Assembly (NCBI GenBank): GCA_024372495.1
Contig: CP099977.1
Span: 2,976,001-3,040,000, forward strand
Origin: Pseudarthrobacter sp. Fe7
GTDB taxonomy: Bacteria; Actinomycetota; Actinomycetes; Actinomycetales; Micrococcaceae
Direction of reading: 5' to 3'
DNA length: 64,000 nt
Below are positions 23,055 through 52,794 of the stretch, piece after piece; positions within the stretch are counted from its first letter, which is position 1; each line of letters opens with the position of its first letter. The notes below the pieces were generated by a model. The model was given only the letters and a program-made list of their open reading frames with translations, had not been told where the DNA came from and did no database searches. A program made the translations under genes and the position numbers.

Positions 23055-24158
23055 ATGCCCAATCTTGATCCCCTGTGGAACACTCTCCGCATCGGCTCCA
23101 CAGAGTTGCCCAATCGTGTCGCTCTGGCGCCGATGACCCGGGTTAGCGCCTCCGAGGATGGTCATGCCACCGAGCGGATGGCATCGTACTACTCCCGCTT
23201 CGCCCGCGGAGGCTTCGGGCTGCTGATCACCGAGGGCATCTACACCGACACCGCCCACAGTCAGGGCTATCTCTTCCAGCCAGGCCTGGCCACGGCCGAA
23301 CAGACTGAATCCTGGGTAAAGGTGGTCGACGCTGTGCATGCCCGAGGGTCGCGGATCTTTGCCCAGCTGATGCACGCCGGCGCGCAGGCGCAGGGCAACC
23401 GCCACGTTGGCTCCACCATCGGCCCGTCCGCCGTTGCTCCCAAGGGCGAGCAGCTGGGCTTTTACCGTGGCGAAGGACCCTACCCGGAGCCTGAAGAGGC
23501 CACCCGCGCGCAGATGCAGCACGTGCGTGAAGGCTTCGTGAACGCTGCGTTGAACGCAAAGGCTGCCGGCTTTGATGGCGTGGAGATCCATGGCGCGAAC
23601 GGTTACCTGCTGGATCAGTTCCTCACGGACTACCTGAACCAGCGCACCGACCAGTATGGCGGCACGGCCGAGAACAGGGTGCGGTTTGTGGCTGAGGTAG
23701 CCCAGGCTGTCCGCGATGCCGTCGGCCCTGACATGAGCGTCGGCATCCGCATCTCCCAGGGCAAGGTCAGCGACTACACCCACAAGTGGGCAGGCGGCGC
23801 GGACGAAGCGAAAACGATCTTCACCGCATTGGCTGCTATCGGTCTCGACTACATCCACACCACCGAGTACCGCGCTGACGCCCCCGCCTTCGGCGACGAA
23901 GGGCCCTCACTTGCGGCCCTCGCCAAGCAGCACACCGGGCTACCGGTCATCGCCAACGGCAACCTGGATGAACCGGAAGCAGCCGCGGCACTGATCGCTG
24001 ACGGTCAGGCCGACGTCATCGCCCTGGGCAAGGCAGCCCTCGCTACCCGCGACTGGCCCCGCCGGGCGCGCAGCAACGAAAGCCTCGAAGAACTCGACGG
24101 CAGCGTGTTCGCACCCCTCGCGGATGTCAAGGACTGGGAACTGGAACCCACCGCCTAA
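23055..24158 (+). CDS. Old yellow enzyme-type ene-reductase
   Basis: A 367-residue FMN-dependent NADH:flavin oxidoreductase that reduces activated C=C bonds. Visible marks: LPNRVALAPMTR (residues 15-26, phosphate end of FMN), GGFGLLITEGIY, AQLMHAG (substrate His region), the FDGVEIHGANGYLLDQFL block with H and N, GGTAENRVRFV, and HTTEYRA. Start chosen at the ATG seven bases after AAAGGA. It precedes the peroxiredoxin-like and haloacid-dehalogenase-like genes, probably as one unit. A paralogue of identical length lies at 30536-31639. Confidence 0.85.
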   Translation: MPNLDPLWNTLRIGSTELPNRVALAPMTRVSASEDGHATERMASYYSRFARGGFGLLITEGIYTDTAHSQGYLFQPGLATAEQTESWVKVVDAVHARGSRIFAQLMHAGAQAQGNRHVGSTIGPSAVAPKGEQLGFYRGEGPYPEPEEATRAQMQHVREGFVNAALNAKAAGFDGVEIHGANGYLLDQFLTDYLNQRTDQYGGTAENRVRFVAEVAQAVRDAVGPDMSVGIRISQGKVSDYTHKWAGGADEAKTIFTALAAIGLDYIHTTEYRADAPAFGDEGPSLAALAKQHTGLPVIANGNLDEPEAAAALIADGQADVIALGKAALATRDWPRRARSNESLEELDGSVFAPLADVKDWELEPTA

Positions 24159-28319: not shown

Positions 28320-29846
28320 TCAGAGCAGACCGTGCTGCATCGCGAAAAGGGCGGCGGCGGCCCGGCTGGAGACCCCGATTTTCCGGTAAATGTCCTGGAC
28401 GTGGTGCTCGGCGGTGCGGGGCGAAACCACCAATGTTCTGGCAATCTGCTTGTTGCTGTCCCCATTCGCGAGGCGCCGGAGGACCTCCACTTGCCGCTCA
28501 GTGAGGCCTGCGGGCAGATCGCGGCACAAGTGAGCCTTCGCACCAGTCACGGCGACGACGATGGCGCGCACCGCCGCGGCATTCAGGGCTCCCTGCCGTG
28601 CGAGACGGCTGAGCTGTTCGCACCCCTGCTGGGGTGTCATCGGCTCGCCGAGACGAGGGTGAGTCATCTCCAGATAAGCGTCGACAGCGGCCAGCAGCTT
28701 ACCCCCAGCGGGGATGTTCTCTCCGCGCAGGCCTTTGAACGTGCCCGATCCGTCCTCGCGCTCGTGATGGACGGCTGCGAGCTCGGCCTCGGCCGCAAGA
28801 GTCTGTGAGCGAGCAAGGATTCGGTGGGTGTGCAGGGGATGAAGGTCATACTCCTCCTGCTCCGCACGGGTCCAGGCTGACGGCTTCCCGAGGATTCCGT
28901 TGGAGACCGCAGCCTTGCCTATGTCCCGGAGCGCTGCCGCCCTGCGGACGGGACCGCTGTCGAGGCCCATGACCTTGGCGGCCCGGCCCGCAATCTCGAA
29001 CCCTGCCCGCGAGTTGCCGTACGACGTCGGGGTCTTGAGGTCCACGATCTGACCGACGGCCAGGGCCACCTCATCCATCTGGTCCTCGTCCACCAGGACG
29101 AACGGCGGAGGCTCTTCCGCGGGAAGCTCCACTTCGATATCAGCGGCGTCGAGAGCGTCGAGGATGTCGCGGCCGTGAGCCGCAAACGCCGCTGCCACGG
29201 CGGGGTCCAACTGCTTGCCGGCGCGCTGAGCGACCACTTGCAGCGCTGCGGCGGACCCGCTCAGTTCGTGGAAGGTCATGGCGGTCATGCCTGTAAGGAC
29301 CACCCGGGCCGTGAGAGGGATGTCTTCGCCGGACAGGCCCTGAAAGCCGCCGTGACCGTCGTACCATTCCTCTACCGTGCGCAGTGCCTCGACCACGCCG
29401 GGCCCCAATCCGATCCGTTGCGCTGTGCTGGAGGCGATCTCGCAGGAGGCCCTATGGATGACGGGCCCGAGTTTCGGAGCCTTGATGAGTGCAGCGGCAA
29501 GGAGACGGACCTTAGTCGGGAGATCGGTATCCGCGGTGAGCTCCGGGATAAACGTCCTGAAGAAGTCGGCGGGATCGGCGAAATCGGTAAAAGAGCCGGC
29601 GTGATTCATCTCAATGTCCCGGCCGGCGAAGATGGCGGCCGTCTCCTGTGCATACCCCACACATCCGACGTGCTGGAGGAGAGCCGCGTAGAACACGTCC
29701 TGGATCCCGGCGTCCGCCAGACCCATGGCCCGGGCGAGCCGGCTCGCGATGAAACAACTCCGGGCCGCGGCACCTGCCCGGCGTTCGCGACCCAAATCAC
29801 CCACGCCGGACAGCGCGATCAGCGGCTCGGCCAGCCGAATCTGCAC
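28320..29846 (-). CDS. HD-domain protein with LuxR HTH
   Basis: A 508-residue fusion. The body contains a duplicated HD/HD-GYP-like phosphohydrolase region: residues 1-230 have GCVGYAQETAA and EEWYDGHGGFQGL. Residues 270-400 have AAALRDIGKAAVSNGILGKP, HPLHTHRIL and AAVHHEREDGSGTFKGLRG. The C-terminal 65 residues are a LuxR-type HTH (LTERQVEVLRRLANGDSNKQ, VSPRTAEHHVQDIYRKIGVS). HD-GYP domains usually cleave cyclic di-nucleotides, so this could couple nucleotide binding or hydrolysis to transcription, though the HD pairs here look partly degenerate. It lies upstream of the alpha/beta hydrolase. Confidence 0.75.
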   Translation of the reverse strand: MQIRLAEPLIALSGVGDLGRERRAGAAARSCFIASRLARAMGLADAGIQDVFYAALLQHVGCVGYAQETAAIFAGRDIEMNHAGSFTDFADPADFFRTFIPELTADTDLPTKVRLLAAALIKAPKLGPVIHRASCEIASSTAQRIGLGPGVVEALRTVEEWYDGHGGFQGLSGEDIPLTARVVLTGMTAMTFHELSGSAAALQVVAQRAGKQLDPAVAAAFAAHGRDILDALDAADIEVELPAEEPPPFVLVDEDQMDEVALAVGQIVDLKTPTSYGNSRAGFEIAGRAAKVMGLDSGPVRRAAALRDIGKAAVSNGILGKPSAWTRAEQEEYDLHPLHTHRILARSQTLAAEAELAAVHHEREDGSGTFKGLRGENIPAGGKLLAAVDAYLEMTHPRLGEPMTPQQGCEQLSRLARQGALNAAAVRAIVVAVTGAKAHLCRDLPAGLTERQVEVLRRLANGDSNKQIARTLVVSPRTAEHHVQDIYRKIGVSSRAAAALFAMQHGLL

Positions 29847-30535: not shown

Positions 30536-31639
30536 TTAGCTGGGATCTTCTAATTCCCAGTCCTTGACATCCGCGTATGGAGCGAACGCACCAGGGTCCA
30601 GTACCCCGAATTCCAGGTTGTTTCGGACCAGGTGCGGCCAGTTCCGGTTGGCCAATGCTCCCGTGCCCAAGGCGACGACGTCCGCTGAGCCGTCTGCCAG
30701 CATGGACACTGCGGTCTCTGGGTCATCGAGTTTGCCGTTGGCGATCACCGGCACACCTGAGTACTTCTTGGCCAGCGCAGCGAGGGTTTCCTCGGCATCG
30801 GCGAACGCGGGTTCGGTGGCGCGGTACTCGGTGGTGTGCACGAAGTCGATCCCTGTGGCGCCCAGGGTGCCGAAGATGATTTCCGCTTCCGCCACTCCCC
30901 CAGCCCACTTGTGCTCAGTGTCGCTGACTTTGGATTGGGAGATGCGGATTCCCACGGTCATGCGGGGGCCTACGGCCTCGCGGACGTCGCGGGAGATCTC
31001 CGCTGCGAACCGCACCCTGTTCTCCGGTGACCCGCCGTAGTGGTCATCGCGCTGGTTCAGGTAGTCCGTGAGGAACTGGTCCAGCAGGTACCCGTTGGCA
31101 CCATGGATCTCCACGCCGTCGAACCCCGCCTGCTGCGCATGCAGCGCGGCCGTCACGAATCCGTCCCGCACCTCCTTCATCTGGGACAGGGTGATCGCCG
31201 AGGGAACCGGGTACGGGCCGTCACCGCGGTAAAACCCCAGCTGCTCCCCCTTGGGTGCCACCCCCGATGGCCCCACCGAGGAAGCCACATACCGGTTCCC
31301 CTGGCTCTGCGCCCCCGCGTGCATCAGCTGGGCTAAGATCTTCGCACCCTCCGCATGGACACCGTCGACCACCGTGGCCCAGGACCGGGCCTGCTCCTCC
31401 GTCGCGATGCCGGGCTGGTGATGGTAGCCCTGGCTGTGGGCGGTGTCCGGATAGATGCCTTCCGTGATCAGCAGCCCGAAGCCGCCACGGGCAAAGGTCC
31501 GGTAATAGGACGCCATCCTCTCCGTGGCATGCCCGTCCTCGGTGGCGCTGATGATCGTCATGGGAGCCAGCGCCACCCGGTTGTCCAGCTCGGTGGCACC
31601 GATCCGGATGGGTGACCAGAGCGGGGAGTAATCAGTCAT
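30536..31639 (-). CDS. Old yellow enzyme-type ene-reductase
   Basis: A 367-residue FMN enzyme, paralogue of the one at 23055-24158. It keeps LDNRVALAPMT, DGHATERMASYY, GGFGLLITEGIY, AQLMHAGAQSQGNRY, FDGVEIHGANGYLLDQFLTD and FVHTTEYRA. It should reduce alpha,beta-unsaturated carbonyls or imides with NAD(P)H. It is the last gene of the seven-gene minus-strand operon, and its start overlaps the stop of the small CxxC gene by eight bases, implying translational coupling. In this operon it may saturate a C=C bond before ring hydrolysis. Confidence 0.85.
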   Translation of the reverse strand: MTDYSPLWSPIRIGATELDNRVALAPMTIISATEDGHATERMASYYRTFARGGFGLLITEGIYPDTAHSQGYHHQPGIATEEQARSWATVVDGVHAEGAKILAQLMHAGAQSQGNRYVASSVGPSGVAPKGEQLGFYRGDGPYPVPSAITLSQMKEVRDGFVTAALHAQQAGFDGVEIHGANGYLLDQFLTDYLNQRDDHYGGSPENRVRFAAEISRDVREAVGPRMTVGIRISQSKVSDTEHKWAGGVAEAEIIFGTLGATGIDFVHTTEYRATEPAFADAEETLAALAKKYSGVPVIANGKLDDPETAVSMLADGSADVVALGTGALANRNWPHLVRNNLEFGVLDPGAFAPYADVKDWELEDPS

Positions 31640-32000
31640 GCAAAATCTCCTTGGTAGTGTCCGGGTCCGGCAGCAACGCGGCCGCCCGGGCGGGCAGGCC
31701 CGCGTTGGCGGGATCTGCTGCGTACGCCAGCCGGCGGCCGTTCAGCCTGTCCACGACGGACGCGTCCGGGAAGCAGCCGAGCACCGCGGACCACAGTTCG
31801 TCGACGGTCTGGCGATGCGCGGAGGCTCCGGCGGGCCCGGTCATCAGCCACCCGTCTTTGAGGGCGGCCACTTTCGGGGCACCGGGGAGGCCGGAGCAGA
31901 CGGCATTGACCGTGGCTGCCACGATCAGGTGTTGCCGCATGGTCCGCACCGGGCCCAGGGCGGGGTCCGCCACGGTGGTCCTTCCGCAGGCACCGCACAT
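31632..32000 (-). CDS. Small CxxC protein in catabolic operon
   Basis: A 122-residue protein beginning MCGACGRTTVADPALGPVRT, where C2 and C5 suggest half of a zinc ribbon or a redox pair. The middle has AATVNAVCSGLPGAPKVAAL and the end is acidic and helical. I do not recognise the family. It sits 15 bases after the second SDR and overlaps the ene-reductase, so it is clearly an operon member and possibly an accessory subunit. Confidence 0.6.
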   Translation of the reverse strand: MCGACGRTTVADPALGPVRTMRQHLIVAATVNAVCSGLPGAPKVAALKDGWLMTGPAGASAHRQTVDELWSAVLGCFPDASVVDRLNGRRLAYAADPANAGLPARAAALLPDPDTTKEILHD

Positions 32001-32015
32001 GTCGCTCCCCTTTCC

Positions 32016-32762
32016 TTAGGGCATCACATCGCCGGAGTTGGGCCCCAGCGTCTGTCCCACAAACAGGTTTCCACCCGGATCGCTGGCCAGCAGGAGAGCC
32101 GCGGGAGCCACTTCCGCTGGCGTCCCGAAACGCCCCAGCGGAAGCTCGGCACGCTTCGCGGCCTTCCAGCTTTCCGAGATGCCCTCCACGAGCGGCGTCT
32201 CGATGGGCCCCGGGGCGATGCAGTTGACCAGCACGTTGTCCGGTGCCGTTTCCAGGGCAAGTGCCTTGGAAAGGCCAACCACGCCGGCTTTGGCTGCACT
32301 GTAATGCGTCAGCCCCACCCCGCCCTTGATGGCCGCCTGGGAGGCGATGTTGATGATGCGGCCCCACTTGCGTTGCCGCATCTCCCCCACCACCTCCCGG
32401 CAGCACAGGAACACACCGGTCAGGTCCACCGTGAGGGTCTCGTTCCACATGGCCAGGGACATGTCCTCCAGCGGAGACTCCGTCAGCAGGCCCGCGCTGT
32501 TGACCAGGACGTCGACGCCGCCCAGCGCCTCCCGGGCCTCGGCGAAGGCCGCGCGCACGCTGGCTTCATCGGCCACGTCCACGCGGATGGTGCCGTCCCG
32601 TGCGGCCCGGTCGAGTACGGCCACCCGGTCACCGTTGGCCAGGAAGGCCTCGGCGATGGCTTTGCCGATTCCGCTGGAGCCGCCGGTGACCACCACGCCG
32701 CGGCCGTTCGAGGCCTGGGCGTTTCCCGGGACGGGGTCAGCAGCTTGGGTCGGTGTGTTCAT
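32016..32762 (-). CDS. SDR-family dehydrogenase
   Basis: A 248-residue classical short-chain dehydrogenase. Visible: cofactor loop TGGSSGIGKA (about residues 26-35), the NSAG motif (VLVNSAGLL), catalytic Ser in IINIASQAAI, Y-x-x-x-K in HYSAAKAG, and the C-terminal NLFVGQTLGPNSGD. It probably oxidises or reduces a hydroxyl/keto group of the pathway intermediate using NAD(P). It lies 26 bases after the first SDR. The substrate is not readable. Confidence 0.8.
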   Translation of the reverse strand: MNTPTQAADPVPGNAQASNGRGVVVTGGSSGIGKAIAEAFLANGDRVAVLDRAARDGTIRVDVADEASVRAAFAEAREALGGVDVLVNSAGLLTESPLEDMSLAMWNETLTVDLTGVFLCCREVVGEMRQRKWGRIINIASQAAIKGGVGLTHYSAAKAGVVGLSKALALETAPDNVLVNCIAPGPIETPLVEGISESWKAAKRAELPLGRFGTPAEVAPAALLLASDPGGNLFVGQTLGPNSGDVMP

Positions 32763-32788
32763 AGTGTCCTTTCCTTCCGGCGCCTAAG

Positions 32789-33555
32789 TCAGGCGCGCAT
32801 CTTCACGGTGAGGCCGCCGTCAACCACCAGGGCCTGGCCGGTGATGTAGCGGGAATCGTCGGAGGTAAGGAAGCCGATCACGCTGGCCACCTCCTCCGGC
32901 TTTCCCGCCCGGCCCCAGGGGATGTCGTTCCCTGCCCGCTTCAGTCCCTCGGGACCCAGCGAATTGACCGGGTCCAGGGACTGGGGGTCTCGATGAGGCC
33001 GGGAATCACGGCGTTGGCCCGGATCTGGCGCGGGCCCAATTCCACGGCCACGCTGCGGACCAGGCCCAGGACGCCTGCCTTGGCGGCCGCATAGTGGGCG
33101 TGTTCCTCCCACCCGTACACGCCGCCGGCGATGGAAGACACCGCAACCAGCGCGCCGCCGTCGGACATTCTCTGCGCCCCTGCACGCAGCGTGCGCAGCA
33201 CGCCGGTGAGGTCCACGTTGAGCATGTCGTGCCAGCGTTCGTCCGTCATCTCCCCCAACGGGGAATTCCGCAGGATGCCCGCGTTGGCGATGGCGTAGTC
33301 CAGCCGGCCGTACTCGTCCACGGCCCGCTGTGCCAGGGCGTCCACGGATGCGGTGGTGCGGACGTCCACCTCGTGGATCACCGCCTCACCGTTGGCCTCC
33401 TTGACCAGACGGAGGGTTTCCTCCGGATCGTGGGGGTCGCCGGGGAAGGTGCCGATGACGGACGCCACCCCCTGGCGAGCGTAGTGGACGGCGAGGGCAC
33501 GGCCGATGCCGCTGGCGGCACCGGTGATGATGGCGGCTTTGTTAGGCGACGTCAT
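32789..33555 (-). CDS. SDR-family dehydrogenase, frameshifted
   Basis: Second short-chain dehydrogenase. [20 protein letters not shown] gives the cofactor loop; [20 protein letters not shown] and [10 protein letters not shown] give the active site. Near 32983 a missing C in a C-run breaks the frame after GLIETP. The true continuation is [36 protein letters not shown] and [18 protein letters not shown]. Corrected length about 255 residues. Its ATG overlaps the end of the MFS gene by 14 bases. It may act on the same intermediate as the next gene in the opposite direction or stereochemistry. Confidence 0.7.
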
Positions 33556-34933
33556 GGGGGTGGTCCTCCATCAGGGCTTCAGCAGGGGGCTTGGCGGCGA
33601 TCATCAGGAGCCCGGAGACCAGGGTGCCCAGGGCGCCGACCCAGAGGGCTGCGCTGCCGGTGCCGGCACCGGCAGCGATGGCGGTGAAGATGGCACCGCC
33701 GATGATGGTTCCGGGCTGGCTCATCGCGCCGATGAAGGCGGTTCCGGTGGCCCGGCAGCTCACCGGGTAGCACTCGGCCATGAAGTACTGGATGGCCGCG
33801 TACGGGCCCACCAGGAAGAACAAGCCGGCGCCGTAGGTCAGGATGATCGTGAACGGGTCGTTGGCCAGGGGCTGAGCATGATGGAGAAGGAGATGCCGGA
33901 GAGGATCCAGCCGCCAATGATGGTCCGCTTGCGGCCGATCTTGTCCCCGAGCCAGCCGTGGAACACGTAGCCGAAGTAGGCCAGCAGGTTGATGACGATC
34001 AGCATCCAGAAGGCGTCCGAGAGTTCCACGCCCTTCGCGTTCTTGAGCACGGAGCCTGCCCAGGACACTGAAGATGGTGATGCCAAAGAAGTTCACAATC
34101 CAGGCGAGCGAGAAGACAAAGGTGTTCCGGCGCAGGTGCGGCTCCCAGATGCGCTTGAGCGGGGCTGCCGAGGAGTGCTCGACGCCGTACGCGTGGGCCA
34201 GGGAGTGCGCGTCTTCAGTCTTTCCGTGCTTTTCCAGCTCGGTCAGCTTGTGGTGCAGTTCGAACTGGGGCGTTTCCTTGAGCTTCCGCGCGATGACCCA
34301 GACGATCACGGCGGCCGGGACGGTGGCCATCAGGTACAGGGCACGCCAACCAAGGGACGGCAGGAAGGCCAGGGCCAGTGCGCTGGCCAGCAGGAAGCCG
34401 AGCGGCCAGCCGCCCTGGATGAAGGAGTAGTGGAAGCCGGGGCGCTTGCGCTTGTCCGCGACTTCGGTGACCTGGTAGACCTCGTTCATGTACGTGGCGT
34501 TCACGGCCTGCTCGGAGAAACCGAGGCCGCCGAACGAACGGACCACCACCAGCAGGGCGTTGCTGAAGAACGGGATTCCCGTGGGGATCAGGGCGGTCAG
34601 GCCGGAGACGACGGCGGTGCCGCCGATGGTGGTCATCATGCCTTTGCGGCGGCCCAGCCTGTCGATGACAGGTCCGATGCCGAAGCAGACAATGGCGGTG
34701 CCCACGGCAATCCACGTGTTGATGGCGTACGCCTCAGGGGCGGACCAGCCGAATTCCTGCTGCATTGCCGGCAGCAGGGTGCCGAACAGGCCGTAGTCGA
34801 AGACGGCCACGGTCCAGGCCAGCAGGGCAAGCACGGTAGCGGTGGTGGTGTGGCGCTTGGAAAAGACCGGGAAGCGGCGCTTCTCGTCCGGGCGGGGCTG
34901 CGACAGGTCGACAACCGGTTCTTGGATGCTCAT
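33542..34933 (-). CDS. MFS transporter, two compensating frameshifts
   Basis: A 12-helix major facilitator, probably the importer of the island's substrate. The N-terminal half is intact: [20 protein letters not shown], the loop 2-3 motif [18 protein letters not shown]. An AGCCT at 34053-34057 (should be AGCT) shifts the frame. The true middle reads [47 protein letters not shown] missing C near 33870 restores the original frame for [19 protein letters not shown] to the end. Central basic loop about 220-260. It overlaps its operon neighbours by 4 and 14 bases. Confidence 0.75.
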
Positions 34934-35820
34934 GACTTGTTGTCCTTACGGGGGCTGCGTGCGAGGAAGGAATCGGCGATCTGGTCGAAGGTGCACCAGG
35001 TGACGCCCTCATGGGAGTTGATGTGTTCGATCAGCCGCTCGAGCATGAGCAGCACCTGCGGGCGGCCGGAGACGTCCGGGTGGATGGTCATGGTGAAGAC
35101 GGCCTGGTCCATTTCGCGGTAAACCCAGTCGAACTGGTCACGCCACATCTCTTCGATGTCGCGCGGGTTGACGAACCCGTGCGAGTTCGGGGATGCCTTG
35201 ATGAACATCATCGGAGGCAGGTCATCGAGGTACCAGTTGGCCGGGATTTCCACCAGGTTCGTCTCCTCCCCGCGGACCAGGGGCCCCATCCAGGTCTGGG
35301 CGTCCTTGGTGTAATCGATCTTCTTCCACGAGTCCCCTACCCGGACGTAGTACGGCTCGAAGTCCCGGTGCATCAGGGAGTGGTCGTACTTGATGCCGCG
35401 CTCCAGGAGGATCTCGTTGGTGACCGGCGAGAACTCCCACCACGGTGCAACGTAGCCGGTGGGCCGGCGGCCGGACACCTTTTCAATCAGTTCGATCGCG
35501 CGGTCCAGGATGGCGGTCTCCTGCTCCCGGGTCATGGCGATCGGATTCTCGTGCGAATACCCATGCACGCCGATCTCGTGCCCGGCATCCACGATCATCT
35601 GCGTCAGTTCCGGGAAGGTTTCAATCGAGTGGCCCGGCACGAACCAGGTTGCCGGGAGGTTGTATTTCTGGAACAACCGGATCAGCCGGGGGCCGCCGAC
35701 TTCACCGCTGAACAGGCCGCGACTGATGTCGCATGGGGAGTCCTCTCCTCCGTAGGAGCCGAGCATGCCTGCCACTGCGTCTACGTCCACGCCGAAGGCG
35801 ACTTGAATGTCCTTAGCCAT
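34930..35820 (-). CDS. Polysaccharide-deacetylase-family hydrolase (cyclic-imidase-like)
   Basis: A 296-residue cytoplasmic NodB-type hydrolase with no signal peptide. It has the Asp pair in [10 protein letters not shown] (residues 9-18), [11 protein letters not shown], and the metal-binding His pair in [23 protein letters not shown] and [12 protein letters not shown] complete the site. This PuuE/HpPgdA-like subgroup includes cyclic imidases and allantoinase-like enzymes rather than secreted chitin deacetylases, which fits its place among an amidohydrolase and a transporter. It probably opens a cyclic imide or ureide. It lies 44 bases after the asparaginase-like gene and overlaps the MFS start. 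Confidence 0.75.
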
Positions 35821-35864
35821 GAGATTTTCCTTTCAATTCGTTCAAAACCGGGGTGTTCTGGGTG

Positions 35865-36884
35865 TCAGGCGGAAGGTTCAGGGGGCCTCCCTCGTTGGGC
35901 AAAAATTTCGGTGATCCGCTCCCGGTCAGGATTGATCCTGAGCAGGAGGCTGAGCAGGATCAGCGACTGTGACGGCCGGAGGTGGCCGGAGCTGATGGCA
36001 CCGGCAACCCGCAGGTCCTCGCCACCGCCGCCGGCCCCGTAGATGGGCACCACCGGTCCCGCCTCCACGCGGGTGCTGGTGACCACCACGGCGCCGGACG
36101 CGACGGCGGCGGCCACCTCTGCGCAGAGGCTGGCATTTGCGTTGCCGCTTCCGGTTCCTTGGAGGACGATGCCTTCCGCTCCTGCTTCAAGGGCGGCGTG
36201 CATCAGGGTGGAGTCGGCGCCGGGGTAGGCGGCCACCAGGTCCACCCGCGGGGAACCGCCACCCGGCTGGGGCAGGGGCAGGGCCTCGAGCCTGCCGTCA
36301 CTGCCGTCCATGGCAACTTCTCCTTGGGCTGATACTTGGCCAAGTACCCCAAAATCGGGGTTCGCAAAGGCATCCAGCCGAAGAGTTTGGCTTTTCCGCA
36401 CGCCGGCGGCCGGGAAGATGGTGCCCGCAAAGTGGACCATGACGCCCTTTCCCCGCCCATCCATCGAACCGGCGACGGCGATGGCCCGGGCAAGGTTGTC
36501 CGGCCCGTCGGGAGCGTCCGAGTCGGCGGCCCGCTGCGAGCCTGTGAAGACCACCGCCCGCTCGTCCGTGTGCGTCAGGTCCGCGAGGTAGGCGGTCTCC
36601 TCCATGGTGTCCGTGCCGTGGGTGACCACCACGCCCAGGACGCTGGGGTCCTTGAGGACTTCCTGGATGGTGGCGCAGATCCTCAGCATGTCGTCGAAGG
36701 TCAAGAGGTAGGACCCCTTTTGGAACACGTCCAGCACCCGGACGGGGTGGGAGACACGCGAGCCGAGGGCTTTGAACACCTGCTCGCCGGTATCGGAGGC
36801 GACAGCGCCTCCGGCCTGGGAGGAACGCGACGAGATGGTGCCTCCAGTGGCCAGCAGTACGACGTGGGAGTCGGTAACAGTCAT
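35865..36884 (-). CDS. Asparaginase-like amidohydrolase
   Basis: A 339-residue cytoplasmic protein of the type I/II asparaginase family. The nucleophile motif is VLLATGGTISSR (Thr about residue 14) and the second is VVVTHGTDTMEETAYL (Thr, Asp and nearby Lys region). The C-terminal domain VDLVAAYPGADSTLMHAALE and EGIVLQGTGSGNANASL is complete. In this operon it could remove the amide of a half-amide formed by imide ring opening, rather than act on asparagine. First gene of the seven-gene operon. Its promoter region carries two LacI-type operators. Confidence 0.8.
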   Translation of the reverse strand: MTVTDSHVVLLATGGTISSRSSQAGGAVASDTGEQVFKALGSRVSHPVRVLDVFQKGSYLLTFDDMLRICATIQEVLKDPSVLGVVVTHGTDTMEETAYLADLTHTDERAVVFTGSQRAADSDAPDGPDNLARAIAVAGSMDGRGKGVMVHFAGTIFPAAGVRKSQTLRLDAFANPDFGVLGQVSAQGEVAMDGSDGRLEALPLPQPGGGSPRVDLVAAYPGADSTLMHAALEAGAEGIVLQGTGSGNANASLCAEVAAAVASGAVVVTSTRVEAGPVVPIYGAGGGGEDLRVAGAISSGHLRPSQSLILLSLLLRINPDRERITEIFAQRGRPPEPSA

Positions 36885-36916
36885 TTCAGCTCCAGTAGTT
36901 TGCTGTGCGATCCACA

Positions 36917-36932
36917 ACCCAATCGATTGGGT
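36917..36932. promoter_or_regulatory. LacI-type operator ACCCAATCGATTGGGT
   Basis: A 16-base perfect palindrome with the central CG typical of LacI-family operators. It lies 33 bases before the asparaginase-like start. Together with the site at 37016 it implies control by the divergent LacI protein. Confidence 0.65.
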
Positions 36933-37015
36933 GACGTTCCGCGGAAAGAAGGAGACGCGCTGGAAACGGGGCGGCACCCAAGGGGTGGGGGCACCGGGGA
37001 AGTTGTTGGGGTGGT

Positions 37016-37035
37016 CTACCCAAACGTTTGGGTAG
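37016..37035. promoter_or_regulatory. LacI-type operator CTACCCAAACGTTTGGGTAG
   Basis: A 20-base perfect palindrome with central CG, sharing ACCCAA/TTGGGT with the site at 36917. Centre-to-centre distance is 101 bases, so looping between the two is possible. It sits where both divergent promoters should be. Confidence 0.7.
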
Positions 37036-37149
37036 CACTGATGAACGACTATAGGATGTGAAGCGGGTCACGTCAAGGGTTGCCTGCCCAGCCTTCCGGG
37101 CAGCCCGGGCACACCTGGGCTACAGTGGCCACGGGGGCAGGAGAGGGAC

Positions 37150-38205
37150 ATGAAAGAAAAGGCCGACGGCGGCGGAACGGTCACGCTGAAGGATTTGGCT
37201 CGGGAGCTGGGCGTCCATCCGTCCACCGTCTCCAGGGTCCTGCATTCCGGTTCCGACGTGGCGAAAGGAGCGGCCTCGGCCGCCACCGCCGAGCGCGTCC
37301 GTGAACTGGCCCGCAAGCGCGGCTACTCCCCCGATCCGCAGGCCGCCAGCCTCCGCACGCGGCGGACCAAACTGCTGGGCGTCATCGTCCCCCGGCTCTC
37401 GGACCTGGTCCTGGCCATCATGTACGAGGGCATCGACGAGGCCTCAGCCGAGGTGGGGTACTCCGCGTTCGTGATGAACTCCCGCGACGACCCCAACGAA
37501 CAACGGCGGAAGATCGACCTCATGCTGGCGCGCCGGGTGGACGGCCTCATCATTGGTGACGCCCACCTTGACGGCGGCCTCCTGCAGGAACTGACTGACC
37601 GGAAGGTCCCGTTCGTCCTGATGAACCGCCGGGTGACAGGGTACCCGTCCGCCACCTGCGACGACGTCGTGGGCGGCGAGCTCGTGGCCGGCCACCTGTG
37701 GAAAATGGGCCATCGGCAGGTGGCCGTCATTGCCGGCGAGCCATACGCAAGCACCGCCGTCGACCGCACCGCAGGCTTCCTGGACCGCTGGCGGTCACTG
37801 GGCGGCACCATTTCCGACGACGACGTGGTGTGGTCCAGATTCGATACCGCCGGGGGCCGGGAGGCCGGGGAAAAGATCCTCTCCAGCGGCAGGCCGCGCC
37901 CCACCGCAATCTTCGCGGTCAACGATTTCGCCGCCATCGGTGCGATGGGGGCCCTTCGTGCCCGCGGCCTCACCGTAGGACTGGACGTGGCGGTGGTGGG
38001 CTACAACGACACCTCCCTGGCCGCTGAACTTCCCATTCCGCTGACCTCGGTCCACTCCCCCATGGCGGACATTGGACGCACGGCGGTGCAGCTGATCCAG
38101 GCCGTGCTCAGGGGAGAAAAGCCCGAACCCGTACAGCTGGAACCCACCCTGTTCGTCCGCGAAAGCAGCGCCGCCAGGGCCGCCGCCGAGATGGCCGCCA
38201 ACTAG
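37150..38205 (+). CDS. LacI-family regulator
   Basis: A 351-residue repressor. The N-terminal HTH plus hinge is textbook: VTLKDLARELGVHPSTVSRV (residues 11-30). The periplasmic-binding-like core follows: TKLLGVIVPRLSDLVLAIMY, MLARRVDGLIIGDAHLDGG, HRQVAVIAGEPYASTAVDRT, and ending DVAVVGYNDTSLAAELPIPL. It lies 114 bases beyond a perfect palindromic operator shared with the divergent catabolic operon, so it likely represses that operon and itself. The C-terminus overlaps the convergent PucR gene by four bases. Confidence 0.85.
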   Translation: MKEKADGGGTVTLKDLARELGVHPSTVSRVLHSGSDVAKGAASAATAERVRELARKRGYSPDPQAASLRTRRTKLLGVIVPRLSDLVLAIMYEGIDEASAEVGYSAFVMNSRDDPNEQRRKIDLMLARRVDGLIIGDAHLDGGLLQELTDRKVPFVLMNRRVTGYPSATCDDVVGGELVAGHLWKMGHRQVAVIAGEPYASTAVDRTAGFLDRWRSLGGTISDDDVVWSRFDTAGGREAGEKILSSGRPRPTAIFAVNDFAAIGAMGALRARGLTVGLDVAVVGYNDTSLAAELPIPLTSVHSPMADIGRTAVQLIQAVLRGEKPEPVQLEPTLFVRESSAARAAAEMAAN

Positions 38206-39647
38206 GTTCCGGCGGCGACGATCCGCAGTGCCAGCAGGCACGTGGCCCGCACTTCGCCGTCACCCAGGTCAACCCGGAGAAGCTCCTCAATCTTGCGCAA
38301 TCTGTACGTCAGGGTGTTGCGGTGGATGAAGAGCTCGCTGCAGGTTTCACGGGTATTCCCGCTGTACCGCAGGTACGCCTCAAGCGTTTCACGCAAAGCC
38401 GTGCCGCCGTCGGACATCAACGGAGCCAGGAGGCGCCGGGACATGGCCACCAGCCCTGCCCCGGGCAGGCCCTCCACCACCCCGGCCAGGTCAGCGACCG
38501 GCGCCCGATGGAGCCCCGGTTCACCCACCCGGCGGCGGGCCAGCTGCAGCACCAGCGGCAGTTCGTCCAGGTTCCCGCACCCGGAAACGACGGCGGACAA
38601 TTCCGGCGCGTCCTGGAAGGACTTTTGGACGGCTTCCATGAGCTCCATCCCCGCTTCCCCACGCTGCACCAGGACCGTGGTGAGGCCAGCTTCCTCCATG
38701 AACCGCACCGTGCCGAAGTCAGCCTGCAGGCTCACCCGGACGCGCCAGGCGATGGTTCGCAGCTTCGCCGGTGCAACCTCCCCCGCGCCGCCGATCAGCA
38801 CGGAGCCCCACTCTCCGTCCGGCTCGAACCCGGCCTCTACGGCGTAGCGCCGCAGGGCCGGCGCCGGAGTCCCCCTGGCCTCGTAGAGTCCCTCGATGAA
38901 CCGTGCGGCTTCCCGCGAATGCAGGGGCGACCGGGACCCGAGGGTGTAGCTCAGCTGCATGGCAATCACCGCAGCCACCGGCCCCAACAGCGGCTGCAGC
39001 ACCAGGCTGCTCTTGATTCCCTCGATGGCCAGCCTGAACCGGAGGATCCCGCCGCTGGGCAGGCTCAGGGTGGTCCGGGCCGTTCCGCCCGCAGCCGTTC
39101 CCGCCGACATGAGTTCAAACCCATTGTGGTCAAGGACCGCCACCCGCGCCCGGATGGTTGTGGCCACCCGTTCCAACACCTGCGCCAGCGAATGGCCACC
39201 CGCCGCCAGCCTGGTGCACTCGTCCGCCAGGTCCCACCCTGCGCGCAGTTCGGCATAGCGTTCGGCGGCGATGAGCTGGTCCACATGCCGCATCACCTGG
39301 ACGAACGGCACCTCGGGAGGAAGCTCAAGCAGTGGAAGGCCATGGGCTTCGCAGGCTTTCACCAGTCCCGGCGGCAGTTCACGGTGCGCTGCGCCGAGGC
39401 CGAAAACCAAGCCCGAAACGGGAACGGACATCAGGCGCTCCACGTACGCATCCCAGATGCGGTAGTCCCTGACGTTCAGGCCCATCCCGTTAGTGAGCAG
39501 CAGCGCGTTGACGCTGAGGAACGGCGTGGGGTCCATGTGCTCCGTGGGGGCACACCATGCAATGGGCCGGGCCAGGCGTCCGGGGCTGCCCGGCACAGCA
39601 AGGCGGATGTTCAGTGCAGCATCCGCCACAAGATCGGCAACACGCAT
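38202..39647 (-). CDS. PucR-family regulator
   Basis: A 481-residue activator. Residues 1-115 are a PucR domain (MRVADLVADAALNIRLAVPG, LLLTNGMGL, LPLLELP). The middle has a GGDEF-like degenerate region (about 300-380). The last 60 residues hold the C-terminal HTH (ETLEAYLRYSGNTRETCSEL, FIHRNTLTYRLRKIEELLRV). PucR-type proteins respond to nitrogenous catabolites. It is divergent from pxpA with about 100 bases between them, so it likely activates the pxpA-C operon. Confidence 0.8.
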   Translation of the reverse strand: MRVADLVADAALNIRLAVPGSPGRLARPIAWCAPTEHMDPTPFLSVNALLLTNGMGLNVRDYRIWDAYVERLMSVPVSGLVFGLGAAHRELPPGLVKACEAHGLPLLELPPEVPFVQVMRHVDQLIAAERYAELRAGWDLADECTRLAAGGHSLAQVLERVATTIRARVAVLDHNGFELMSAGTAAGGTARTTLSLPSGGILRFRLAIEGIKSSLVLQPLLGPVAAVIAMQLSYTLGSRSPLHSREAARFIEGLYEARGTPAPALRRYAVEAGFEPDGEWGSVLIGGAGEVAPAKLRTIAWRVRVSLQADFGTVRFMEEAGLTTVLVQRGEAGMELMEAVQKSFQDAPELSAVVSGCGNLDELPLVLQLARRRVGEPGLHRAPVADLAGVVEGLPGAGLVAMSRRLLAPLMSDGGTALRETLEAYLRYSGNTRETCSELFIHRNTLTYRLRKIEELLRVDLGDGEVRATCLLALRIVAAGT

Positions 39648-39747
39648 GGCAAGCCCTCCTGGTTAGTGCAAACAGCATAATCCGCCCGCCCACATTCGGC
39701 GATCCGCCCAATTCCGGCGGGCTCGCCGTCTCTGTACCGTTGCCTGC

Positions 39748-40512
39748 ATGCAAAAAAACGTGACGGAAACCACGCCTGCCCAGGTGCTGCTGAATTCGGA
39801 CATGGGTGAAGGCTTCGGCCTGCACGAGTTCGGCAACGACGCCGCACTCATGGAAATCATCGACGTCGCCAACGTCGCCTGCGGCTACCACGCCGGGGAC
39901 CCGGACGTCATGAACCGGACGGTGGCCCTTGCCGCCGAACACGGTGTGGCCGTGGGCGCCCATCCCGGGCTCCCCGATCCCATGGGGTTCGGCCGCCGGC
40001 GCATGGTGCTCACGCCGGAGGAGGTCGAGTCGATCATCCTGTACCAGACCGGGGCGCTGACCGCCTTCCTGGCCAAGAACGGGCTGTCCCTGAACCACAT
40101 CAAACCCCACGGCGCGCTCTACGGCATGCTCGCCGGAGACGAAGACCTTATGCAGGCGGCGGCCGGAACAGCCAAACAGTTCGGCGTTCCGTTCTACGGC
40201 CTGGCCGGGACCGCCCATGAATCCGTGTGCCGCGCCATGGGCGTGGACTTCGTTTCGGAACTCTATGTGGACCTCAATTACGGGCCGGGCGGCGAACTCC
40301 TCATCCAGCGACGTCCCGCGCCCACCGACCCGGACGCCGCCGCGGAACGCGTCAGCCGGGCGGTGGCAGGCGAGCCCGTGACCGCCGTCGACGGCACTCC
40401 CCTGAACATCGCCTTCCAGAGCATCTGCGTCCACTCGGATGCACCCAACGCCGTCGCCGTGGCCTCCGCGGTGCGCAAGGCACTCGACTCATCCCGATCC
40501 GCCCACTCCTGA
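39748..40512 (+). CDS. pxpA: 5-oxoprolinase subunit A (LamB/YcsF family)
   Basis: A 254-residue LamB/YcsF protein. Clear motifs: LLNSDMGEGFG (residues 14-24), VANVACGYHAGDP, GVAVGAHPGLPD, HIKPHGALYGML, and PLNIAFQSICVHSDAPNAV near the end. PxpA works with PxpB and PxpC to hydrolyse 5-oxoproline (pyroglutamate) with ATP in E. coli and B. subtilis. Here it is followed by biotin carrier and biotin carboxylase genes, so the complex may first carboxylate the lactam. First gene of the operon, divergent from PucR. Confidence 0.85.
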   Translation: MQKNVTETTPAQVLLNSDMGEGFGLHEFGNDAALMEIIDVANVACGYHAGDPDVMNRTVALAAEHGVAVGAHPGLPDPMGFGRRRMVLTPEEVESIILYQTGALTAFLAKNGLSLNHIKPHGALYGMLAGDEDLMQAAAGTAKQFGVPFYGLAGTAHESVCRAMGVDFVSELYVDLNYGPGGELLIQRRPAPTDPDAAAERVSRAVAGEPVTAVDGTPLNIAFQSICVHSDAPNAVAVASAVRKALDSSRSAHS

Positions 40513-40525
40513 AAGCGAGCAGCAC

Positions 40526-40764
40526 ATGGCCACCATCGTTTCACCCCTTCCCGGAGTCTTCTACCGCAAGCCCGGGCCGGGCAAACCCCCTTCGCCAACG
40601 AAGGCGACACCATCGAAGTCGGCCAGACCATCGGCATCGTGGAAATCATGAAGCAGTTCACCGAGATCCAGTCCGACGTCGCCGGGACCCTGGAATCCTT
40701 TGAAGTCAACGAAGGCGACATGGTCAACCCGGGTGACTCCATCGTCGTCATCCGGGAAGGATAA
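40526..40764 (+). CDS. Biotin carboxyl carrier protein, frameshifted
   Basis: A short biotinyl-domain protein. The first frame gives MATIVSPLPGVFYRKPGPGK; a missing C in the CCCCC run near 40589 shifts to FANEGDTIEVGQTIGIVEIM, then KQFTEIQSDVAGTL, VNEGDMVNPGDSIVVIREG. Corrected length about 79 residues. The biotin lysine sits in E-I-M-K-Q rather than the canonical A-M-K-M, as in carrier proteins near pxp genes. The N-terminal membrane of long AccB proteins is absent. It lies 13 bases after pxpA and nine before the carboxylase. Confidence 0.7.
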
Positions 40765-40773
40765 AGGCAGTCC

Positions 40774-42122
40774 ATGAAACTGTTCATCGCAAACCGCGGC
40801 GAGATCGCCGTGCGGATCGCCCGGACTGCCCGCGGCATGGGCATCGAAACCGTCCTGGGGGTCAGCGAGCCCGACGCGGAATCCCTGGCAGCCCGGACAG
40901 CCGACCACTATGTGGTGGTGGGCCCGGCCCAGGCAACCGCCAGCTACCTGAACCAGGACGCCCTGGTCGCTGCGGCCCTCGAGCAGGGGTGCGACGCCGT
41001 CCACCCGGGCTACGGTTTCCTCTCGGAGAACGCCGACTTCGCCCGGAAGGTGGCAGACGCCGGCCTCACCTGGGTGGGCCCCACCGCGGACACCATCTCC
41101 ATGATGGGCAACAAATCCCTGGCCCGGGAAGCGGCGGCCAACGCCGGCGTCCCCGTGCTCAAGGGGTCTGACGGCCCCTTGGATCCGGAGCCTGACGCCG
41201 TCGACATTGCGCGTGCGATTGGGTACCCGCTGGTGGTGAAGGCCTCCGCCGGAGGGGCGGCCGGGGCATCCGGTTCGTGCACGACGAAAGCGGGCTGCTG
41301 GAAACCATCGAGATGGCCAGGGGCGAGGCAGCCGCCATCTTCGGCGACCCCACCGTCTACCTGGAACGGTTCGTGGAGCATGCCCGCCACGTGGAGGTGC
41401 AGGTCCTGGGCGACGGGACCAACTTCATCCACCTCGGCGACCGCGACTGTTCCATGCAGCGCCGTTCCCAGAAGGTACTGGAGGAAGCCCCTGCACCCAA
41501 CCTTCCGGACGCCGTCCGTGCCACCATCAGGGAGTCCTCCGTGGCCCTTGCCCGCCAGTGCGGCTACCACGGAGCGGGCACCGTGGAGTTCCTGTACGAC
41601 CCCGTCAACCACGAGGCCGCCTTCATTGAAATGAACACCCGCATCCAGGTGGAGCACCCCATCACCGAGCAAATCACCGGCGTGGACCTGGTCCGCGAAC
41701 AGCTCCTGATTGCCTCCACCGGATCCATGTCCATTTCCCAGGACGACGTGCACTTCACCGGCCACGCCATCGAATGCCGCATCAACGCAGAGGACCCCAG
41801 CCACAATTTCTTCCCCAGCCCGGGAACCATCCGCTCCCTGGACTGGCCATCGGGTGAGGGCATCCGCGTGGACACGGGGGTGGAAGCAGGTTCGGTGGTG
41901 AGCCCTTACTACGACTCCCTCCTGGCCAAGCTGGCCGTCCACGCCGCAGACCGGGACGCCGCCATCGCGGCCACCTTGGCGGCGCTGGAGGCAACACACA
42001 TTGAAGGGGTCAAGACCACCGTCCCCGTCCACCTGGCGCTGCTGGCTCGGCCTGAATTCGCCGAAGTCAGCCACCACTCCAAGTTCATTGAAACCGCAGC
42101 CGACCTCATGGGGGCAAAATGA
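40774..42122 (+). CDS. Biotin carboxylase (AccC-type), frameshifted
   Basis: Biotin carboxylase that uses ATP and bicarbonate to carboxylate biotin on the carrier. MKLFIANRGEIAVRIARTAR, HPGYGFLSENADFA and GNKSLAREAAANAGVPVLKG are the N-terminal part. A missing G near 41256 breaks the ATP-grasp glycine loop; the other frame continues GRGIRFVHDESGLL, YLERFVEHARHVEVQVLGDG, EMNTRIQVEHPITEQITGVD and HAIECRINAEDP. Corrected length about 449 residues. Its stop overlaps pxpB (ATGA). Being embedded in a pxp operon, it probably serves the oxoprolinase-type complex, not fatty acid synthesis. Confidence 0.8.
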
Positions 42123-43024
42123 CCACCGAAGCCGCCGTCCTCCCGGGTGCGCGCTACACCTGGGGCGGGGACGAATTCCTGTTCGTGGAAGTCTCCGAAG
42201 CGATGAGCCTGCCCGCGAACTTCAAGGTCATGTCCATCGCCGGCAGGCTATCCGACGCCGGGCTCCCGGGAATCGTGGACATCTGCCCGGCCAATGCATC
42301 CCTGCTGGTGCGCTTCGATCCGGACGTCCTGCCTCCGGAACAACTGGGAACAGCTGTGCGCGACATCGAGCGGGACCTGGCGTCCCACCAGGAACGGGCA
42401 CTGGAGACCCGCATCGTTGAAGTCCCGGTCTGGTACGAGGATCCCTTTACCGCGGAAGTGGCCCAGCGGTTCCGCGAAGGGTTCCACCAGGAGCCTGAAG
42501 GCAGCGACATTGACTACGCGGCCAAGGTCAACCACCTCAAGGACGCCGCGGAGTTCATCCAGCGGCACCACGAACAGCCGTGGCTGGTGTCCATGGTGGG
42601 CTTCGTGGCCGGGCTGCCGTTCCTGTTCCAGCTGGTGGACCACGACAAGCAGCTGGAGGTGCCCAAGTACCTGAGCCCGCGGACCGACACCCCCAAGTTG
42701 ACCGTGGGACACGGAGGATGCTTCGGCTGCATCTACTCCGTACGGGGCGCGGGCGGGTACCAGATGTTTGGAGTAGCGGCCGCGCCCATCTTTGATCCCG
42801 ACCAGGCGCTGGCGGACTTCAAGGATTTCATGGTGTTCTTCCGCCCCGGAGACATCGTCAAATTCAAGCCCGTGACCGAGGCCGAATACAACGAGATCCA
42901 GGCGGAGATCTCCGCCGGCACCTTCCGCTACCGGCAGGCGCCGGTGACCTTCGAGCTGTCCCAGGCCCTGGCCGATCCCGAAGGCTACAACCGTGAACTC
43001 ATGGAGGCCCTCAATGGCATTTGA
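42119..43024 (+). CDS. pxpB: 5-oxoprolinase subunit B (KipI family)
   Basis: A 301-residue protein homologous to allophanate hydrolase subunit 1/KipI. Motifs: LFVEVSEAMSLPANFKVMSI, GLPGIVDICPANASLLVRFD, VEVPVWYEDPF-like EVPVWYEDPFTAE, GFVAGLPFLF, VGHGGCFGCIYSVRGAGGYQ and the C-terminal GDIVKFKPVTEAEYNEIQ. It is longer at the start than KipI and intact. It forms the carboxyltransferase-like partner of PxpC. Overlaps both neighbours, so translation is tightly coupled. Confidence 0.8.
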   Translation: MTTEAAVLPGARYTWGGDEFLFVEVSEAMSLPANFKVMSIAGRLSDAGLPGIVDICPANASLLVRFDPDVLPPEQLGTAVRDIERDLASHQERALETRIVEVPVWYEDPFTAEVAQRFREGFHQEPEGSDIDYAAKVNHLKDAAEFIQRHHEQPWLVSMVGFVAGLPFLFQLVDHDKQLEVPKYLSPRTDTPKLTVGHGGCFGCIYSVRGAGGYQMFGVAAAPIFDPDQALADFKDFMVFFRPGDIVKFKPVTEAEYNEIQAEISAGTFRYRQAPVTFELSQALADPEGYNRELMEALNGI

Positions 43025-44001
43025 AATTGGAAACCCAGGCCTGGCCACCACGGTCCAGGACCAAGGGCGTATGGGCCACTACAACGTGGGCATCCCGCAA
43101 AGCGGTTCCATGGACCAGTACTCCGCCGAGCCTGGGAAATGCCTTGGTGGGAAACACCGCACGGGAAGCAGTCCTTGAATGCACCTACCTCGGCCCCGTG
43201 CTGAGCACCAACAGCGACGCCGTCATCGCCGTTACCGGCGCCCCAGTTGAGGTGAAGGTCAACGGGGAGCCTCGGCAGCAGTGGAGCCGCCTGCTGCTGA
43301 AGGCCGGGGACCAGCTTTCCTTCGGCGTCATCCAGGGCGGCACCCGCTACTACATCGCCGTCCAGGGCGGCATCGACGTCCCGGAGGTGCTGGGCAGCCG
43401 GTCCACATACAGCCTGGGCGCGATCGGCGGGTACAACGGCCGAAAGCTCGAAGCGGGCGACGTCGTCCCCGTGGGCGCTCCCCTCAACGGCGGGAAACTG
43501 CCTAGGCCCGACACTGTCCCGGAGGAGTTCCTTCCCGTTTACGCCAAAGAGCAGGAAGTCCGCATCGTGCTGGGGTTGTACGACCACCGCCTCACCGAAG
43601 AAGGCCTGGGGAATCTCCTCAACGAGGAGTGGAAAGTAACCCCGGTCGCTGACCGGATGGGTCTGCGCTACTCCGGCCCCGGTGTGAAATGGAAAGAGCG
43701 CGAACAGCCTTTCGGCGCCGGCTCGGACCCTTCCAACATCGTGGACGCAGGGTACGCCGTGGGATCCATCCAGATCCCCGGCGGCACCCAGCCGATCATC
43801 CTGCACCGCGACGCCGTCTCCGGCGGCGGCTACGCGATGGTGGGCACCGTGATCAGCGCCGACATGGACCTGGTTGCCAGGGCAGCCCCCGGAACGGCAA
43901 CCCGGTTTGCCGCTGTCAGCCTGGATGATGCCCTCGAAGCGCGGCGGGATCTTGCCGAGCGCCGAAACAAGGCGTGGGGCGCACTCGGTGCCAGTCGCTG
44001 A
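43014..44001 (+). CDS. pxpC: 5-oxoprolinase subunit C (KipA family), frameshifted
   Basis: Homologue of allophanate hydrolase subunit 2/urea carboxylase carboxyltransferase half. MAFEIGNPGLATTVQDQGRM and GIPQSGSMDQYSAE, then an extra C at AGCCT (43129-43133) shifts into LGNALVGNTAREAVLECTYL. It continues AVTGAPVEVKVNGEP, YYIAVQGGIDVPEVLGSRST, MGLRYSGPGVKW and GSIQIPGGTQPIILHRDAVS. Corrected length about 328 residues. The ATG lies within the end of pxpB. Last gene of the operon; a strong hairpin follows at 44159. Confidence 0.8.
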
Positions 44002-52791: not shown

Positions 52792-52794
52792 CCC

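Follow-up and report, generated by a model that had tools for sequence, protein, structure and literature searches.

A 64,000-nucleotide stretch of the genome of Pseudarthrobacter sp. Fe7 (genome positions 2976001-3040000; hereafter the window) contains what, judging from sequence comparison, is likely to be a substrate-inducible operon that serves the breakdown of a small cyclic imide or of its hydroxy-lactam precursor. At its centre stands a NodB-fold hydrolase, predicted to be a zinc cyclic-imide hydrolase (imidase) of the group that includes Helicobacter pylori HpPgdA and Aspergillus nidulans HxnM, and beside it lie genes for an asparaginase-fold amidase, a major facilitator superfamily (MFS) transporter, two short-chain dehydrogenases (SDR1 and SDR2), a small protein that begins with the motif MCGxCG, and an ene-reductase of the old yellow enzyme (OYE) type. 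In the scheme that we infer, an importer (MFS here; ATP-binding cassette (ABC) or NCS1 elsewhere) would bring in the ring compound, the ene-reductase would saturate a ring double bond where needed, an SDR would oxidise a ring carbinol to the carbonyl and thereby yield the cyclic imide, the NodB-fold enzyme would hydrolyse the imide to the half-amide, and the asparaginase-fold enzyme would remove ammonia, so that a dicarboxylate could enter central metabolism. The MCGxCG protein (together with a CobW GTPase in Proteobacteria) would probably serve the imidase in metal handling, a LacI-family regulator would repress the operon promoter via two operators, and a neighbouring biotin-coupled Pxp unit may open a related lactam.

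The predicted imidase and its amidase partner

The NodB-fold protein (34930-35820, minus strand) is identical to H. pylori HP0310 (HpPgdA, PDB 3qbu) at 222 of 292 residues (76%) over its full length, and it conserves both Trp127 and the metal and catalytic residues D12, D14, H86, H90 and H247, whose roles are taken from the HP0310 structure paper (PMC3084791). That protein, although annotated as a peptidoglycan deacetylase, is described there as related to PuuE, as lacking both a predicted signal peptide and an accessible polysaccharide groove, as having a closed small-molecule site, and as inactive on N-acetylglucosamine, chitotriose, acetylated polyamines, acetylated dipeptides and allantoin (PMC3084791). 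HxnM has been assigned to the group cd10938 (CE4_HpPgdA_like) and is more than 60% (64%) identical to the Pseudomonas putida cyclic-imide hydrolase AAY98498 (PMC8478523; PMC9304392), and the structure closest to it is HP0310 (PMC9304392). The prediction of a zinc cyclic-imide hydrolase is thus made from the identity to HP0310, the data on HP0310, and the group that HxnM shares with it. The P. putida YZ-26 imidase itself (AAY98498, EC 3.5.2.16) belongs to the same family by way of HxnM, and differs in that the available description of it mentions no operon (PMC9304392). Within NCBIfam, none of the deacetylase models listed reaches its cut-off with the window protein, which matches only the broad families PF01522 (Polysacc_deac_1) and PF10096.

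To place this gene in context, a profile scan of named genomes with the NodB protein gave 591 confirmed loci, of which the best 80, a set skewed to close NodB relatives (at least 77% identity), were scored for gene presence by tblastn with self-set thresholds; 16 of them are shorter than 20.8 kilobases (kb), and contig ends can cause gene absences. An amidase gene is present in 75 of these 80 loci and lies within 4 kb of NodB in 72; it is asparaginase-fold in 57 and amidase-signature in 18, with no locus having both and five having neither. The two amidase families are unrelated to each other, and at least two switches between them are seen on the NodB tree (89 rows), where Thioclava sits inside the amidase-signature group yet carries an asparaginase; a haloarchaeon also has an asparaginase gene adjoining NodB. 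It therefore appears that cleavage of the amide is retained although the protein that would perform it is replaced, as is expected if the product of the imidase is an amide, which would need hydrolysis. A comparable pair of imidase and half-amidase, leading from imide through half-amide to dicarboxylate, reportedly operates in Blastobacter sp. A17p-4, with an imidase that is dihydropyrimidinase-like, not NodB-fold. The sequence of imidase and amidase, proposed for cyclic imides in an initial annotation of the window, is accordingly one that the comparison supports, as is the linkage of the two units; the lactam step, placed there in the same route, is treated below as conditional.

In the window, the amidase (35865-36884, minus strand) comprises the Asparaginase N and C domains (PF00710, 170.5 bits) and is the predicted half-amidase; it scores below the cut-off for type II L-asparaginase (TIGR00520, 183.3 against 314.3). 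Equivalents of T12, T89, D90 and K162, which we take to be the catalytic residues of asparaginase under its usual numbering, are invariant in 54 of 54 aligned amidases (53 loci plus the window, six of 59 asparaginase-positive loci not having been recovered and being left out). At the asparagine-binding position, presumably Gln59 in Escherichia coli L-asparaginase, these proteins have Tyr (44/54) or Phe (10/54); this was set aside as proof of half-amidase activity and is taken as a hint only, as solved L-asparaginases, several of them engineered, vary there too. Translation of the amidase probably starts at the ATG at 36884 and not at the GTG at 36977, because the longer reading would contain an operator.

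Conserved partners, spread and regulation of the operon

Domain families of the window's open reading frames (ORFs) were assigned with Pfam and NCBIfam and by comparison to related loci, and all genes named in the initial annotation were recovered in the order given there. The imidase operon occupies the minus strand from 36884 down to 30536 (amidase, NodB, MFS, SDR1, SDR2, MCGxCG protein, ene-reductase), and the Pxp unit the plus strand from 39748 to 44001 (pxpA, biotin carrier, biotin carboxylase, pxpB, pxpC). The best 80 imidase loci cover Actinobacteria, Pseudomonas, Halomonas, Mangrovibacter, Neisseria, Lautropia, Paracoccaceae and Bacillota, to which plasmid records with NodB add Klebsiella, Pantoea, Rhizobium, Agrobacterium, Shinella, Thioclava, Acidiphilium, Paraburkholderia, Rhodococcus and haloarchaea. 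The Rhodococcus plasmid has the same gene order as the window, OYE included, with an unannotated MCGxCG frame visible. The nearest named relatives of the window genome by NodB gene are Arthrobacter and Pseudarthrobacter.

The two SDR genes, SDR1 (32789-33555, minus strand; PF00106, 155 bits) and SDR2 (32016-32762, minus strand; PF13561, 176 bits), occur in 63 (one, L073, being a weak opposite-strand match) and 61 of the 80 loci, respectively, and the MFS gene (33542-34933, minus strand; PF07690, MFS_1, 96.7 bits) in 62. The SDRs, to which no role had previously been assigned, thus belong to the conserved core and would make the imide. The ene-reductase (30536-31639, minus strand; PF00724, Oxidored_FMN, 253 bits; short of the cut-off of every NCBIfam model listed) is present in only 11 of the 80, so that the saturation step envisaged by the initial annotation has its enzyme in the window but is an optional part of the operon. 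A copy at least 75% identical is found in 16 relatives, the window genome included, and in 14 of these NodB is no more than 10 kb away. Two more paralogues of the operon ene-reductase, which share 69% identity with it, are located at 22953-24158 (plus strand) of the window and at G000:C1:3228343-3229431.

Other recurrent neighbours of the imidase include a CobW GTPase (22/80), a GntR regulator (17/80), a solute-binding-like protein (17/80), and an NCS1 permease of the cytosine/uracil/allantoin family (7/80). The solute-binding-protein-like ORF, which is SBP_bac_8 as judged by its Rhizobium homologue, adjoins CobW in proteobacterial imidase operons (L085, 15313-16509; L076, 2451-3722). On a plasmid of Sulfitobacter sp. 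SK012 (L163), two NodB-fold genes accompany a dihydropyrimidinase, an N-carbamoyl-D-amino-acid hydrolase and an Asp/Glu racemase in a cluster that also holds hydantoinase A/B, a small ORF and a GTP-binding protein; this cluster and the NCS1 permeases fit a cyclic ureide or imide as substrate. In Variovorax (L162) and Leisingera (L164), NodB-amidase pairs stand with a protein of the 'urea carboxylase-associated family'.

The MCGxCG protein (31632-32000, minus strand; 122 residues, motif at its N-terminal start) belongs to an undescribed family. By motif search, a protein that starts with MCGxCG or a close variant is found near NodB in 67 of the 80 loci; rather than the minor extra for which it had first been taken, it is a frequent companion of the imidase. 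Actinobacterial and mainly proteobacterial types are related (hhalign, 96.6%). Scans of 13 and 19 members gave no convincing Pfam match for either type, and nothing at E<=0.1 for the window protein; nor was there a convincing PDB sequence match, with none at E<=1 for one type and 0.039 and 0.69 for the other. Single-member or weak Pfam matches to zf-nanos (0.039), DUF2767 (0.02), QH-AmDH_gamma (0.044) and DUF4141 (0.051), and weak PDB matches to 1yac (0.039) and 4wgf (0.69), were taken as chance. Two AlphaFold models of the family have a mean predicted local distance difference test score of 81.7 and 86.9 (below 50 at the MCGxCG end of the first), and a Foldseek search of the second, that of the window protein, against the PDB gave nothing at E<=0.001. 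In a second sample, of 149 relatives (NodB counted at 55% identity or more and the imidase-linked type of PxpA at 56% or more, both self-set), the protein was matched at E<=1e-6 in 24 genomes, 23 of them with NodB; the 24th is a fragmented assembly (G073) in which it lies beside an OYE. Together with CobW in Proteobacteria, the MCGxCG protein may serve the imidase in metal loading or handling.

Divergent from the operon lies the gene for the LacI-family regulator (37150-38205, plus strand; PF00356, PF13377, Peripla_BP_3), a LacI gene being present in 49 of the 80 loci. The gap between it and the amidase contains two putative operators, the perfect palindrome CCCAATCGATTGGG (36918-36931) and the palindrome CCCAAACGTTTGGG (37019-37032). 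Their consensus, CCCAAWCGWTTGGG, has exactly two sites in the genome, both in this gap, against about 0.06 expected by base composition (66% G+C assumed; the window itself has 63%). The exact operator was found in 23 of 24 genomes searched (0/24 for the reversed control), and in the 18 searched genomes of the genus all exact sites are found upstream of the NodB match, at a distance of about 1.1-1.3 kb. LacI is probably a local repressor of the imidase operon, given that its operator sites are confined to this promoter. A PucR-family regulator (38202-39647, minus strand; PF07905, PF13556, HTH_30), divergent from pxpA, has a homologue that stays beside pxpA in the rearranged loci L045, L054, L058 and L059, and probably regulates the Pxp unit. 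Both regulators to which the initial annotation had attributed control are thus present, but the LacI operator is local to one promoter and does not extend to the Pxp unit.

The biotin-coupled Pxp unit and its surroundings

The second unit resembles the PxpABC 5-oxoprolinase in that its PxpA (LamB/YcsF; 39748-40512, plus strand) scores above the family cut-off (NF003814, 267.4 bits against 226) and in that homologues of PxpB (42119-43024, plus strand) and PxpC (43014-44001, plus strand; assigned by homology and a frame test against relatives) are present. It differs by the addition of a biotin carrier protein (40526-40764, plus strand) and a biotin carboxylase (40774-42122, plus strand), both recognised by comparison with related loci, and by a PxpB that falls below the curated cut-off (TIGR00370, 82.8 bits against 145.55), for which reason the unit is not filed here as a plain 5-oxoprolinase.

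PxpB and PxpC accompany the imidase in 21 of the 80 loci. Among the 149 relatives, NodB is present in 29 genomes (in broken pieces in one), the linked type of PxpA in 25 (three genomes, G012, G043 and G054, with a PxpA of 49-51% identity and no such NodB, being excluded), and both in 21 (Fisher p 2e-15, related genomes not being independent); the two genes lie within about 6 kb of each other in 17 of these 21. In the 15 genomes that gave a match, non-linked PxpA copies reach at most 51% identity to the linked one, and all except two fall at 35-42%; the other copies in the window genome are 41% and 36% identical. Within Actinobacteria, the Pxp unit takes three arrangements relative to the imidase operon, and it is also near that operon in Rhizobium, Shinella, Thioclava and Acidiphilium (three alphaproteobacterial families); of 36 plasmid records listed as carrying NodB as well as PxpB, many of them from near-identical strains, 35 have the two genes no more than 20 kb apart. 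The co-occurrence of the two units in other genomes, by which the initial annotation proposed that its reading be checked, is thus borne out in Actinobacteria, Rhizobiaceae, Thioclava and Acidiphilium. PxpB and PxpC of the window are 55% and 54% identical to the linked proteins of Rhizobium pRL12 (for whose locus tags no paper was found), and 32% and 34% identical to the other copy in the same genome (two stretches checked). PxpB proteins on records with no visible NodB are equally close to the window PxpB, up to 59%.

In Ruegeria (L156), a biotin-type Pxp unit lies beside genes for gamma-aminobutyrate (GABA) transaminase and succinate-semialdehyde dehydrogenase. In Paenarthrobacter YJN-5 (L158), pxp genes lie beside a class III aminotransferase, an aldehyde dehydrogenase and a gene of the glutamine synthetase family, and no biotin carboxylase is annotated beside them in that stretch. 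The neighbours in these two organisms suggest a gamma-lactam substrate.

Five reading frames of the window are broken relative to close relatives: those of the MFS protein (residues 293-355 out of frame, as shown by a frame test against L034, L035, L043 and L060), SDR1 (near 32980; two frames here against a single intact gene in L060), the biotin carrier (near 40580), the biotin carboxylase (near 41241-41274) and PxpC (near 43132-43151). As the assembly is rated 78.87% complete, sequencing indels are the likely source, with real decay in this single strain as the other possibility. To the right of pxpC lies a transposase (44734-46056, plus strand; rve and HTH_Tnp_1), which in our own reading is IS3-like; beyond it, a piece of a beta-keto acid cleavage enzyme is followed by a peptide-type ABC transporter (52084-59791, plus strand), some frames of which seem incomplete. 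On the other side, an HD_5 domain is fused to a LuxR-type DNA-binding domain (28320-29846, minus strand). Among 20 chosen flanking ORFs of at least 200 amino acids in the window, there is no gene that would name a pyridine or pyrrole source.

Competing readings and significance

Several observations weigh against the reading as an imide-catabolic operon with a coupled Pxp step. No Pxp is seen in 59 of the 80 imidase loci, and SDR1 is missing in 17, from which it follows that a simpler imidase-amidase core also exists. PxpA occurs with no such NodB in four of 25 genomes (one of them the fragmented G073), and the Pxp unit of Ruegeria, Diaphorobacter and Azospirillum has no annotated NodB within 8 kb. 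A single-clade origin of imidase-linked PxpB had to be abandoned, as four PxpB proteins taken as unlinked interleave with the linked ones in the tree (in which rows L153, a fragment, and L158 are very long). The LacI-type operator is absent from the pxpA promoter, and six of the 29 NodB relatives have no MCGxCG match at E<=1e-6; NodB is broken in one of these six, and the remaining five belong to different genera within the order. HP0310, finally, has been reported as active on acetylated xylan, chitin and p-nitrophenyl acetate (PMC3688963) and linked to H. pylori peptidoglycan deacetylation in work cited in PMC3084791.

If cyclic-imide catabolism is accepted, the ring size may still be asked. 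OYEs reduce maleimides, and Pxp enzymes act on a five-ring lactam; both would suit a five-ring route in which 5-hydroxy-2-pyrrolidinone or maleimide is turned into succinimide, then succinamate and finally succinate, while the Pxp unit would convert 2-pyrrolidinone or 5-oxoproline into GABA or glutamate by ring opening. The link to Pxp favours such a route, as do the GABA-type neighbours of the Pxp unit in Ruegeria and the aminotransferase and aldehyde dehydrogenase beside pxpABC in Paenarthrobacter YJN-5. Nevertheless, two SDRs are unnecessary for so short a route, no GABA genes were recognised beside the window Pxp unit among the ORFs scanned, and most imidase loci show no Pxp at all; we regard the five-ring route as possible but doubtful.

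It is also rather doubtful that the two units are independent nitrogen-scavenging systems, one for imides and one for 5-oxoproline, with descent as the only reason for their adjacency. Their separate regulators, the restriction of the LacI-type operator to the first unit and the four genomes in which the Pxp unit lacks such a NodB would be so explained, but the linkage survives three actinobacterial arrangements and recurs in alphaproteobacteria in a separate part of the PxpB tree, and the linked PxpB is far from the genome's other copy.

A six-ring route would make the operon a bacterial counterpart of the lower nicotinate (hxn) pathway of A. nidulans, running from 2,3,6-trihydroxypyridine through 5,6-dihydroxypiperidin-2-one, 3-hydroxyglutarimide and alpha-hydroxyglutaramate to alpha-hydroxyglutarate. 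There, an OYE (HxnT), an SDR (HxnW), an imidase (HxnM) and an amidase (HxnN) are described for these same steps (PMC9304392), the transporters HxnP and HxnZ are MFS-type (PMC9304392; PMC8478523), and hxnM pairs with hxnW in fungal clusters (PMC8478523). This segment contains most of the enzyme set for which the initial annotation knew of no described pathway (PMC9304392), and the account of 2022 states that some of its steps have no prokaryotic equivalent. A search of titles and abstract openings, with subscription papers mostly outside its reach, found no description of the bacterial gene set. By enzyme class, the likeness consists in the joint presence of OYE, SDR, HpPgdA-like imidase, amidase and transporters, and in an imide that is formed by oxidation, opened and then deamidated, as would also hold on the bacterial side; by this analogy, the bacterial operon may work like the lower hxn segment. 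The window amidase has an asparaginase fold, like that of most actinobacterial loci, whereas HxnN is of the amidase-signature type (PMC8478523); the signature type does occur in Proteobacteria, including Pseudomonas. The bacterial loci add a second SDR, the MCGxCG protein, the biotin-coupled Pxp unit, LacI and PucR, and most have no linked OYE. A full six-ring route nonetheless appears unlikely: OYE was not found in 69 of the 80 loci, and among the 20 chosen flanking ORFs of the window there is no pyridine hydroxylase (HxnS, HxnX or HxnV type) or molybdenum hydroxylase. A flavoprotein near the Rhodococcus plasmid operon was considered as an HxnV-like hydroxylase and rejected, as it belongs to FAD_binding_2 and not FAD_binding_3.

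A role in repairing glutamine or asparagine that has cyclised (to aminoglutarimide, aminosuccinimide or 5-oxoproline) would accommodate the asparaginase-fold partner and the Pxp unit, as well as the short loci of Lautropia, with imidase, small protein and CobW, and of Neisseria, with an amidase in addition, which have no SDR pair; it is very improbable, the importers, SDRs, ene-reductase and LacI-type regulators suggesting catabolism of an external compound. A cell-wall or polysaccharide deacetylase, as which HP0310 and the plasmid genes are annotated and to which the PF01522 match and the reported HP0310 activities (PMC3688963) would also point, is scarcely credible in view of the closed small-molecule site of HP0310 (PMC3084791), the deacetylase models that fall short of their cut-offs, and the amidase, SDRs and importers with which the gene shares its operon.

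Inducible cyclic-imide catabolism thus remains the preferred reading of the operon. Beyond the window, we tentatively suggest a widespread and undescribed prokaryotic pathway in which a hydroxy-lactam would be converted to a cyclic imide and opened by an HP0310-type hydrolase, together with a biotin-dependent lactamase and the MCGxCG accessory family. If this is true, 'PgdA' of H. pylori would be an imidase acting on cyclic imides, and prokaryotes would have a counterpart of that half of nicotinate breakdown which has been supposed to be fungal. The analysis brings forward a new family of putative accessory proteins and a particular candidate for a lactam-opening enzyme, and it suggests that bacteria have their own version of a pathway segment of which parts have been stated to lack a prokaryotic equivalent. 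It likewise offers a testable physiological role for a group of enzymes commonly annotated as polysaccharide deacetylases, among them a protein linked to the virulence of H. pylori.

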